Assembly: GCA_026399755.1 (NCBI GenBank)
Contig: JAPLQI010000092.1
Location: 1 to 33,623, forward strand
Reading direction: 5' to 3'
Origin: Pseudomonadota bacterium
GTDB lineage: Bacteria; Pseudomonadota; Gammaproteobacteria; Burkholderiales; Chitinibacteraceae
DNA: 33,623 nt
Shown: in pieces, positions 30,771-33,623 of the stretch
Layout of the letters: each line of letters starts with the position of its first letter
How positions within the stretch are numbered: position 1 is the stretch's first letter
Program-made: the position numbers and the translations under genes
The notes under the pieces: generated by a model
Told to the model about the DNA's origin: nothing
The model's input: the letters and a program-made list of their open reading frames with translations, nothing else
The model's database searches: none

Positions 30771-31025
30771 TTATCTGGCGGGTTTCACCCGCCCTACAAA
30801 TTCATATTGCTTATCAGGTGGTCCCTGCATTTTCAGGAGGATCTCGTGCAGCAAATCGCTGAGTAGCTCATAGCGCTCAAGCGGATCAATCCCCGGTAGC
30901 AACGCAATAGCCACATCTCAATCAATTTGTGCATGCTCTAGCCCTTTAACACGGCTACCTACCAATACAGCAAAAGCAATCTTCGGGCTAAGCGCCAAGC
31001 AATCACACAAGCGCTGCAGTGACAT
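30771..31025 (-). pseudogene. nucleotidyltransferase (MntA-like) remnant with in-frame stop
   Basis: An 84-codon frame starts at the ATG 31025-31023, which shares a base with the rmlD stop (TAATG). Translation gives KIAFAVLVGSRVKGLEHAQI then D, a TGA at 30920-30918 (codon 36) and DVAIALLPG. This is the GS...D-x-D motif of small Pol-beta-type nucleotidyltransferases such as MntA antitoxins; the residue at the stop is usually Trp (TGG), so a single G-to-A change explains it. After the stop the frame continues with PLERYELLSDLLHEILLKMQ and ends in codons formed by the dispersed palindrome. No partner HEPN-like toxin gene is visible. It is probably a decayed cassette. Family call is by motif only. 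Confidence 0.6.
30778..30797. repeat. dispersed palindrome, second exact copy
   Basis: GCGGGTTTCACCCGCCCTAC. The first 15 bases are the exact reverse complement of 14424-14438, and the CACCCGCCCTAC part also occurs at 1861-1872. It lies just upstream of rmlA (minus strand) and forms the last codons of the nucleotidyltransferase remnant. Confidence 0.7.
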
Positions 31026-31294
31026 TATTTTTTGCTCAGCAAGGTCATCACTTGCATCACGCCGTCTTGCCAGTCTGGCAGGCAAAGACCAAATGCCGCT
31101 TGTAGCTTTTCTGTGCTTAGCTGTGAATTTGCTGGCCTTGGTGCGGGTAAGGGGTAAGCGCTGGTTGGGATGGGGAGAATTTGTGTAGCTTTAACTGGAA
31201 CGTCAGCCGCTTTTGCTCGCTCAACCACGCTCTCTGCATAGCCATGCCACGTTGTACTTCCAGCGGCAACTAGATGATAAGTACCATATAAGAC

Positions 31295-31321
31295 AGGGAG
31301 TGGGGAGTCGGGAGTTAGGGA
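31295..31321. repeat. GGGAGT-type heptamers inside rmlD
   Basis: AGGGAGTGGGGAGTCGGGAG then TTAGGGA: about four imperfect 7-base units. On the minus strand they encode roughly SLTPDSPLP in frame in rmlD, between EQ and VLYGTYHLVAAG, a place where RmlD normally has a short loop. Same motif family as the arrays at 31949, 32433 and 32557. Confidence 0.75.
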
Positions 31322-31896
31322 TTGCTCCGAGGCTAAAATTTGCCGAATCGCATGAGCGGTCACATCGGCCAATAAGCTTGCCGCAGTCGGCGCGCCGTGT
31401 TGGTCGACGATGATTTTTAGCTCTTCCCGTTCACCTGCCAAACGCAAGATAGTTTTTAAAAAGTTGCCACCGTGTGCACCAAATACCCAGCTGGTTCTGA
31501 ATATCAGATGTCGAGGATTTGCGGCAGCAATCGCCAGCTCACCGGCTAGCTTGGTTTTGCCATATACAGACTGCGGGTTCGGCGTGTCGGTTTCGCTATA
31601 CCAACCGCCTTTTGTGCCATCAAACACATAATCGGTGGAGTAATGCACCAATAGCGCACCTATCTTCGCCGCTTCCTCTGCAAAGATTTGCGGGGCGATT
31701 GTATTGATTGCGTGTGCTAGCTCTGGCTCGCTTTCAGCCTTATCCACCGCAGTATGCGCTGCAGGGTTCACAATCACATGCGGCTGTACTCTGGCAACCA
31801 GTGCACGTATCGCCTCTGGATTGCTCAAATCACAGTCTTCCCGATCAACCGCAATCACAGAGCCAAGCACGGCTAGGCTGCGTTGCAGCTCGAAAC

Positions 31897-31934
31897 CGAG
31901 TTGGCCGTTTTTGCCCGAGTTGGCCGTTTTTGCC
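31897..31934. repeat. 19-bp perfect tandem duplication in rmlD
   Basis: CGAGTTGGCCGTTTTTGCC occurs at 31897-31915 and again, without a gap, at 31916-31934. On the minus strand each copy encodes the GKNGQL part of the Rossmann loop, but in two different frames, because 19 is not a multiple of three. Confidence 0.95.
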
Positions 31935-31948
31935 GGTAAGCAAAATGC

Positions 31949-31976
31949 GGGGAGTGGGGAGTAGGGAGTAGGGAGT
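31949..31976. repeat. four tandem heptamers at the left end of the cassette
   Basis: GGGGAGT, GGGGAGT, AGGGAGT, AGGGAGT, directly adjoining rmlD sequence at 31946. On the minus strand they encode the YSLLPTP part of the new rmlD leader. Confidence 0.85.
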
Positions 31977-32045
31977 CAAGGCCATGTCCGTTACGCTTAA
32001 TGTCATTGAGGTTTATGCTTGAAATTTTTGTTCATATCGTTGTCA

Positions 32046-32414
32046 TCACTCATCATCGTGTACCTTTTGAGCAATTTTTCTATGTAAACCACTCAATAAT
32101 TTTCCAACTTTATCTACTTGCCCAAATAAACAACAATCCACTTGCACATAAGCAAGCATTGCCGAAATTTCGACTTGCGTATCAAGCTCACTTAAAGAAC
32201 CACGGGCAATATTGAGAAAGCGCAGATATTCTCTGGATGTTCCACGCGCCACACCTTCGGCAATATTTGAAGGGATAGAGACGGATGCCCGCCGCATCTG
32301 ACTACTCAAGCCATAGACCTCTTCACGAGGAAATTGAGCCGTCGTTTGATACACCATCTTCACCAACAACATCGACTGCTGCCATGTTTCCAGTGATTTA
32401 TGCGGTTTATCCAC
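32046..32414 (-). CDS. four-helix-bundle protein (S23/Avd-like)
   Basis: 122 residues. The core wording [20 protein letters not shown] then SNIAEGVAR matches the four-helix-bundle family (23S rRNA intervening-sequence protein type, also related to the Avd accessory of diversity-generating retroelements). The protein is helical throughout and ends [10 protein letters not shown]. Its function is not established; family members are small, often pentameric, basic proteins. The start is GTG at 32414, with GGAG eight bases upstream; a longer frame back to 32555 is only the translation of the heptamer array (NSQLPTP repeats) and is rejected. It lies between rmlB and rmlD, inside the repeat-bounded cassette, and has no evident link to sugar synthesis. 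No reverse transcriptase or 23S gene is nearby. Confidence 0.85.
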
Positions 32415-32432
32415 TTTATTACTCCAAAGAGG

Positions 32433-32502
32433 TTGGGAGTTGGGAGTTGGGAGTTGGGAGTTGGGAGTTGGGAGTTGGGAGTTGGGAGTTGGGAGTTGGG
32501 AG
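32433..32502. repeat. ten perfect tandem TTGGGAG heptamers
   Basis: The 7-base unit TTGGGAG is repeated ten times without error (70 bp). It lies 18 bases upstream of the GTG start of the four-helix-bundle gene, so changes in copy number could alter spacing between any promoter and that start. Because 3 x 7 = 21, the array reads as a seven-residue peptide repeat (NSQLPTP) in an open frame. Confidence 0.97.
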
Positions 32503-32556
32503 TTTATAGATTTTTCGCCAAAGCAAAACATCTCCACAAGCCCTCTCTCAATCATA

Positions 32557-32590
32557 TCCTACTCCCCACTCACTAATCCCTACTCCCCGC
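32557..32590. repeat. inverted GGGAGT-type heptamers at the right end of the cassette
   Basis: CCTACTCCCCACTCACTAAT then CCCTACTCCCCGC. On the minus strand these are GGGGAGT/AGGGATT/AGTGAGT/GGGGAGT-like units, in the opposite orientation to those at 31949-31976. The last nine bases are the inverted partner of 31947-31955. They start two bases after the rmlB stop codon on the minus strand. Confidence 0.75.
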
Positions 32591-32592
32591 CC

Positions 32593-33623
32593 TTACGCAT
32601 ACTGCTGCTCAATCCAGTTTTGATAAGCACCAGATGTCACATTTTGCACCCAATCTTGATGCTCTAAATACCAATCAACGGTTTTAGCAATACCTGTTTC
32701 AAAGGTTTCCGCAGGCTTCCAGCCTAGCTCTCGCTCTAGCTTACTCGCATCAATGGCATAGCGCTTATCGTGGCCAGGGCGGTCTGTTACGTAAGTGATT
32801 TGCTCAGCGTAAGCCTTGCCGTCGCCACGAGGCTGGCGCTCGTCAAGAATCTGGCAGATGGTGTGGACTACATCTAAATTCGGCTTTTCATTCCAGCCGC
32901 CTACATTGTAAGTTTCACCCACTACGCCGGCTTCCAACACGCGGCGAATGGCGCTGCAATGATCTTTTACATACAGCCAGTCGCGAATCTGCTGGCCATC
33001 GCCATAAATCGGCAAGGCTTTACCAGCGAGGGCATTCAAAATCACCAGCGGGATCAACTTTTCAGGGAAATGATAGGGGCCGTAATTATTGGAGCAATTG
33101 GTGGTCAATACCGGCAGACCATAGGTATGGTGCCAGGCGCGAACCAAATGATCGGATGCCGCTTTAGATGCGGAATACGGGCTATTTGGCTCGTAAGTCT
33201 TGGTTTCGGTAAAGGCAGGGTCATCAACCGCTAAAGAGCCATAGACTTCATCAGTTGACACATGCAAAAAGCGAAATGCCGCTTTGGCATCCGCTGCTAA
33301 ATCAGTCCAGTAGCCACGCACGGCTTCTAGCAAATTAAATGTGCCAACTACATTGGTCTGAATAAATTCACCGGGCCCGCTAATTGATCGATCCACATGT
33401 GATTCGGCGGCAAAATTAAGCACGGCACGGGGCTGATATTTGGTCAGCAATGCGCTAATGGCCGCTTTATCGCCAATATCTGCGCGCACAAAAATATGCC
33501 GTGCATCGTTTTTTAATGAGGCTAAGGTATCTAGATTGCCCGCGTAAGTGAGCTTATCTACATTGATAATGGCTTCATCTGATTGCGCCAACCAATCTAA
33601 AACAAAATTACCACCAATAAAAC
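32593..33623 (-). CDS. rmlB: dTDP-glucose 4,6-dehydratase (RmlB), 5' end beyond window
   Basis: The frame is open to the right edge; the last codons read [20 protein letters not shown], so only the first eight or so residues (the start of the NAD loop) are missing. [42 protein letters not shown] (catalytic Thr-Asp-Glu), [14 protein letters not shown] (YxxxK), [18 protein letters not shown] and [13 protein letters not shown] are diagnostic. It converts dTDP-glucose to dTDP-4-keto-6-deoxyglucose, the branch point between rhamnose and 3-acetamido sugars here. First gene of the minus-strand operon as far as the window shows, so the promoter lies outside. The stop lies three bases from the four-helix-bundle cassette. 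GC-richer than the downstream O-antigen genes. Confidence 0.95.

Follow-up and report, generated by a model that had tools for sequence, protein, structure and literature searches.

The window, which is the whole 33,623-nt stretch of DNA analysed here (contig 18 of a 4.95-Mb genome, G000), carries between rmlB and rmlD a segment in which one small gene is bordered by arrays of heptamers. The locus raises the question of whether this segment is an inserted unit able to move without a transposase. All genes concerned lie on the minus strand. The product of rmlB (nt 32593–33591, frame end at nt 32593) was a dTDP-glucose 4,6-dehydratase (TIGR01181, E 1e-141) whose 5′-end extended beyond the window edge, and on the other side lay the body of rmlD (dTDP-4-dehydrorhamnose reductase, nt 31025–31870). 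The only gene in the segment between them (nt 32046–32414), which was also the single gene of its kind in the genome, encoded a 122-aa protein matching PF05635 (23S_rRNA_IVP; E 8e-33, 113.2 bits against a cut-off of 33.8) and TIGR02436 (105.7 bits against a cut-off of 24), and is referred to below as the IVP gene. Comparison with G007, a genome of the same genus, indicated the GTG at nt 32414 as its likely start, the reading frame being open also through the adjacent array up to an ATG at nt 32555. Its designation as a four-helix-bundle (S23) protein is a predicted one taken from the name of TIGR02436; solved relatives found by sequence were 2gsc (XCC0516) and 2rld. We know of no catalytic function of IVP. 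PADLOC gave no match.

On the coding strand, a G-rich heptamer array (nt 32558–32590) began 2 bases past the rmlB stop codon, a perfect 10.4-copy array with the unit ACTCCCA (nt 32432–32504) lay directly 5′ of the IVP start in the orientation opposite to the array adjoining rmlB, and a C-rich array (nt 31947–31976) lay at the rmlD side; as tandem repeats the three extended over nt 32558–32587, 32432–32504 and 31950–31976, respectively. A preliminary description had recognised 9-bp inverted ends and heptamers inverted at the two ends of the segment. The 9-bp sequences were indeed present, GCGGGGAGT at nt 31947–31955 and ACTCCCCGC at nt 32582–32590, and the terminal 30-nt arms were 87% complementary, but they proved to be simply the outermost units of the heptamer arrays; likewise the inverted terminal arrays were there, but those at nt 32432–32504 and 31296–31315 had been overlooked, as had a 19-bp tandem duplication (see below). 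The array at nt 31296–31315, with three GGGAGTN units on the plus strand, lay inside rmlD in a loop that varied within the genus, a similar stretch being seen in G005 and G003 and a different one in G004, G006 and G007. The same description had placed the left boundary at rmlD codon 3 and supposed that the native ATG had been removed. Comparison with relatives showed the rmlD ATG to be intact at nt 32004–32006, 39 bp beyond the stop codon of IVP, and from this position onward the codons were like those of rmlD in the IVP-less G003 of the same genus. Because this ATG is retained, the left array lies within the rmlD coding sequence, where it codes for most of an N-terminal tail, LTPYSLLPTPR, preceding ILLTG. 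The specific insertion footprint that had been proposed is not supported, given the retained start codon, a left boundary inside coding sequence and the gene-less array pairs found elsewhere in the genome (see below). No target duplication was readable around the window's element. A 19-bp tandem duplication (nt 31896–31933, minus strand) shifted the rmlD frame just past the GKNGQLG motif; it was absent from the other 7 rmlD starts compared (G003 to G008 and G016) and may be either genuine or a product of misassembly.

At the rmlB-rmlD junction, IVP was found in G007 and in G016 (another genus of the same family) and was absent from G003, G004, G005, G006 and G008, the other readable junctions of the genus, showing that the gene is not universal at this place; its presence there in all relatives would have spoken against an inserted unit. 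Two Deefgea loci (L108 and L109) carried IVP between rmlD and a frame similar to the nucleotidyltransferase-like one of G005 described below. A left array within rmlD was shared by G007, G016, L108 and L109, and in the last three the rmlD ATG was overlapped by the IVP stop and followed by an array-coded tail, e.g. MTTPPSLLSSP. Where the window had an array of about 10 units, G007 had 2 units at the same place. The junction of G005 held other sequence with a nucleotidyltransferase-like frame, and from such sequence comparisons the region after rmlB seems to be an insertion hot spot. Nucleotidyltransferase-like frames followed rmlB in L035 (G005) and L033 (G001), and a related stretch preceded IVP in L108 and L109.

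Flanks of this type were a general property of the relatives. A scan of genome contigs gave 586 confirmed relatives, from which the best 80, belonging to many phyla, were kept; being those nearest to the query and having a seed motif in common, they do not sample PF05635 at random. Another 21 IVP loci came from viral contigs. Inverted flanks of period 7 scoring at least 16 were present at 50 of the 80 genome loci and at 17 of the 21 viral-contig loci. Among control positions, that score was reached by 3 of 955 chosen at random in the same loci and by 4 of 682 matched to ORFs. When the best of periods 6 to 12 was taken, 66 of the 80 loci qualified, 50 at period 7 and 16 at period 8, while among random positions 11/400 qualified, 3/400 of them at period 7 or 8. 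Four of the 14 loci under the threshold scored 15, and two others were no more than 140 bp from the end of their contig. Among the 66 loci that qualified, the inverted score was higher than the direct score in 58, lower in 5 and tied in 3. The period-7 flank excess is not purely inverted: flanks in the same orientation also reached 16 at 15/80 loci, with medians of 20 for inverted and 10.5 for direct flanks. Periods 5, 6 and 9 were rejected, with inverted flanks at 0/80 loci, only periods 7 and 8 winning at the 66 loci.

The sequence of the repeat unit varied among loci, and what was kept was the period together with the inverted orientation. Units around other IVPs included GTGAGGN or GAAGGGG at dnaK-dnaJ and GCAAGAR in G046; by eye, G058 had three different units, a copy of G003 borne on rRNA had a degenerate set, and G051, a weak IVP match, had no flanking arrays. 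On the coding strand the upstream motif contained more G than C in 69/84 motifs, less in 5/84 and equal amounts in 10/84. A tree was built from 98 of the 101 IVPs (three with stops excluded), 84 of them labelled with period 7 or 8 at a score of at least 15; the two periods clustered on it, requiring 9 changes against a shuffled mean of 15.7 with 0/300 shuffles as low, a clustering to be read in the light of relatedness and of many weak branches. The unit's own motif recurred elsewhere in 20 of 40 loci, compared with 38 of 240 for foreign motifs. Very long arrays (about 13 units or more) lay beside IVP in L128 (Thiodictyon), L260 and L263, which suggests strong expansion there. Within 3 kb of 79 IVP loci (L109, a near-copy of L108, being omitted) no recurrent partner gene was found; the largest neighbour cluster comprised 7 loci, and the member displayed was an RmlB-like enzyme.

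Heptamer arrays also occurred apart from IVP. The pattern GGGAGTNGGGAGTNGGGAGT matched exactly 18 times when overlaps were counted, and these matches fell at 8 places of the 4.95-Mb genome; the window held 11 of them, and the reversed control pattern gave 0 matches in the same genome. An origin of the arrays by chance or composition was ruled out by the reversed-pattern, random-position and ORF-matched controls. With one mismatch allowed, GGGAGTN arrays were located at 10 sites of G000 outside the window's contig; nine were G-rich/C-rich pairs around a short loop and without IVP, the tenth (C24) being single, so that dispersed, mostly intergenic tandem 7-mers in convergent pairs, the arrangement of heptamer repeats, are present in this genome. 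One such solo pair was traced through the genus. The pair of G000 stands where G008 has a hairpin that by eye resembles a terminator; at the same site the pair had grown to a far larger number of units in G002 and was degenerate in G003, and G004 to G007 had other sequence.

Among 61 genomes, GGGAGTN arrays were present in 8 of the 9 members of the window's genus as well as in G016 and G034, GTGAGGN arrays in 16/61, none of them in that genus, and GAAGGGN arrays in 5/61, with 39 of the 65 matches in G011. One or more of the three heptamers occurred in 11 of 12 genomes with an above-cut-off IVP versus 14 of 49 others, a count in which kinship is ignored; the exception among the 12 was G046, whose own unit lay outside the three heptamers searched. 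Since G014, G022 and G028 were rich in GTGAGGN arrays and had no detectable IVP, at dnaK-dnaJ either, arrays persist or spread without IVP in these genomes. A reading in which the arrays are pre-existing, slippage-prone repeats into or amid which IVP genes insert, so that the arrays are targets and not ends, accords with the IVP-less GGGAGTN arrays of G000, with the 14/49 genomes and with the different array lengths in G000, G007 and G002. That reading is disfavoured by the plasmids described below.

Plasmid flanks were taken from 12 of 31 matching records. These loci, of which 11 were cyanobacterial and the twelfth was from Gemmatirosa, scored at least 16 in nine cases, and the other three showed arrays by eye. 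Six filled/empty comparisons were obtained from plasmids of Nostocales and Picosynechococcus, in which array-IVP-array is present or absent as a block between otherwise similar genes. The inserts measured 413–518 bp except in L287, whose insert reached 601 bp and whose IVP is annotated as a short gene. Site 1 was empty in five plasmids, which had TTCTAGGTTATG or close variants, and filled in three; L286 had TTCTA on both sides, a duplication of 5 bp, and the alignments of L262 and L287 gave 2-bp losses. The comparison is unpolarised by a tree, and gain would be favoured over loss because five empty stand against three filled and because of the duplications. The duplication at site 2 was ATG. 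At site 3 (trb), the empty L294 and L295 had AAAAAGTAATTAACAAAT, and in L261 and L269 the element stood between two copies of GTAAT; three of the seven IVP-less candidates for this site were examined, one of them being an IVP relic. At the same site, nt 1202–1335 of L293 (Nostoc sp. C052 plasmid E) consisted of an upstream array and a piece like the IVP start, possibly an intermediate between a full element and a solo array. Sites 5, 6 and 7 had lost 32, 11 and 16 bp, respectively, and there the upstream gene ended in altered codons and an altered stop, once with an array-derived stop codon; the downstream start codon was kept at all six sites. Target duplications were thus of no fixed length, measuring 5, 5 and 3 bp at three sites, with losses of 11–32 bp at the other three.

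The empty plasmid sites shown contained no array, the arrays and the gene appearing together. Moreover, related elements in L261, L262 and L297 occupied three unrelated sites with 76–82% nucleotide identity between their IVP genes, and the DNA they shared was confined to about 410 bp and ended in arrays. Homology between copies at different sites thus enters the arrays and then stops, and it is quite unlikely that the arrays are mere targets. IVP was also observed within CRISPR operons of cyanobacterial plasmids (L260, L263 and L265), in the order cas6-IVP-cas4 (type I-D, two plasmids) and cas10-IVP-cmr3 (type III-B); no clean empty site was found for the cas6-cas4 position.

The dnaK-dnaJ junction gave a further series of states. 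It was matched in 60 genomes and 30 loci were examined; outside the count were G020, G025, G027 and G035 (no readable dnaJ), G003, G004, G006 and G007, and also G048 and G009, with gaps of more than 1.1 kb. Gaps bearing IVP measured 411–424 bp (6 genomes) versus 68–126 bp in 14 others, many of the short spacers having a terminator-like hairpin by eye, and in the 6 genomes array-IVP-array began at the dnaK stop codon and ended just short of the dnaJ start, a few bases away. Genera g3, g6 and g9 each contained both filled and empty states, and within one genus G011 differed from G021 and G029 at this junction in its IVP as well as in its heptamer. Together with the plasmid empty sites, the absences at rmlB-rmlD and the flank statistics, these states support the core of the preliminary description, namely that a small gene of the S23/Avd type travels together with heptamer arrays and lacks a transposase.

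Recurrence at dnaK-dnaJ, at rmlB-rmlD and inside CRISPR operons might instead point to a stationary operon module, in which IVP and the stem would control expression or RNA processing between adjacent genes and would be passed on vertically, with occasional loss. IVP was co-directional with both neighbours at 39 of 60 loci compared with 103 of 230 control ORFs, the 60 being those of the 80 loci with enough flank and the ORF calling being crude, with at least one known context (L135) wrong, and pairing of the arms in predicted RNA would likewise suit such a module. Patchy presence within one genus, the many unrelated contexts, the six filled/empty comparisons and the differing IVP and heptamer at a single junction (G011 versus G021 and G029) argue against it, and we regard a stationary module as very unlikely.

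The arms were predicted to pair as RNA, with z of -3.7 for the window element (20 shuffles) and of -4.0 and -4.7 in two other cases (100 shuffles each); the window element thus has terminal inverted repeats, 87% complementary in their arms, that form a predicted stem. Its IVP was distantly matched by phrog_3206, annotated in PHROG as the Avd protein of DGR (E 3.2e-5). Target-primed insertion produces junctions with short duplications or losses that vary in size. The distant Avd match and the variable short duplications and losses at the plasmid junctions are in keeping with a retroelement, the element RNA being copied by a reverse transcriptase acting in trans and IVP acting like Avd. Diversity-generating retroelements have a reverse transcriptase, whereas RVT_1 (PF00078) had 0 matches in the window's genome, and no recurrent neighbour gene accompanied the 79 IVP loci; a retroelement origin therefore appears unlikely.

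Among known systems, the closest is the intervening sequence (IVS) of the Coxiella 23S rRNA gene. According to the available text of PMC4990558, it comprises 428 nt with an S23p ORF, a 28-bp terminal inverted stem and three tandem GACAGAT heptamers before the ORF, and a mobile origin has been proposed for IVS (Ralph and McClelland 1993, cited therein). The Coxiella IVS and the window element have a protein family in common; the former lies in the 23S rRNA gene, the latter instead between the protein genes rmlB and rmlD, and the part of that account available does not present arrays that are inverted and defined by period as something that IVP genes generally have. A connection within the window's own genus was provided by G003, a one-contig genome with six IVP matches of equal score (L066, L074, L076, L078, L079 and L080), of which L066, the one locus of the six checked with Rfam, was within 23S rRNA.

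The heptamer repeats of Xanthomonas and Nostoc are described in the accessible portion of PMC4692102 as G-rich, of period 7, mostly intergenic and G-quadruplex-forming, with an unexplained role and with 70 convergent pairs in Xcc and 75 in Xac. These convergent pairs, as there described, resemble the IVP-less solo pairs of G000, and an IVP of X. vasicola (L116) was flanked by the Xanthomonas heptamer unit GGGAATC; no IVP gene and no mobility figure in that portion, and the terms 'four helix' and 'S23' have 0 occurrences in the main text. The TAACTGA repeats of Beggiatoaceae, found also in cyanobacteria and Bacteroidetes, are dispersed intergenic 7-bp repeats, but direct and mostly 5′ of start codons, in contrast to the inverted arrays here, and 'S23' and 'four helix' have 0 occurrences in the available text (PMC4679880).

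The STRR of cyanobacteria are short tandem repeats in Nostocales, whose plasmids also carry IVP elements; no link between STRR and a gene showed among the papers listed by the literature search. MITEs and insertion sequences have inverted ends and target duplications. IVP elements are like them in their inverted ends and in the short target duplications at some sites, and differ in that the ends share a period and not a sequence, in the irregular junctions and in the lack of any transposase, IVP being the only gene inside and the 79 loci having no recurrent neighbour.

Taken together, our reading, to which we assign a probability of about 0.6, is that the window segment belongs to a group of transposase-less mobile elements with ends defined by period rather than by sequence. 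That the 23S rRNA intervening sequences are members of the same class is the best reading of their relationship and one we consider somewhat probable. An element of this kind would consist of one IVP gene between two inverted tandem arrays of 7-bp, sometimes 8-bp, units, about 0.4–0.5 kb in all and with no other gene. Both its mode of movement and the role of IVP as driver are inferred from sequence. The arms may pair into a stem as RNA or single-stranded DNA, and IVP, a distant relative of Avd, may bind the repeated stem in a register of 7–8 nt, whereupon host polymerase and repair would join the element to its target and so give rise to irregular junctions. Insertion would leave target duplications of 3–5 bp or losses of up to 32 bp, and at some places the element would have replaced a whole spacer or terminator. 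Solo array pairs would then be gene-less remnants growing and shrinking by slippage, and IVP-heptamer elements may thereby seed bacterial heptamer repeats. The window copy would be an old, drifted one, with one array inside rmlD and another of about 10 units versus 2 in G007.

A wider proposal is that these elements form an autonomous class, spread over bacterial phyla and archaeal contigs, whose ends are recognised through period (7 or 8 nt) and inverted orientation and not through sequence, which encodes just one protein, a four-helix bundle, with no known nuclease, and which is the source of the Xanthomonas GGGAATC and cyanobacterial STRR heptamers and of the 23S rRNA IVS; this we hold only tentatively, at slightly under even odds. 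A general link of IVP genes with inverted heptamer flanks was not found in the literature searched, a scope outside which bioRxiv and most subscription journals lay.

If IVP elements are mobile with period-defined ends, they would represent a mode of transposition without a known nuclease and would give rise to new intergenic structure, to the replacement of terminators and to new tails on proteins. The pairs of filled and empty plasmids make this mobility directly testable. The elements may also provide one answer to two puzzles, the origin of heptamer repeats and the purpose of S23/IVP and the rRNA IVS, both left open in the available texts of PMC4692102 and PMC4990558, respectively.
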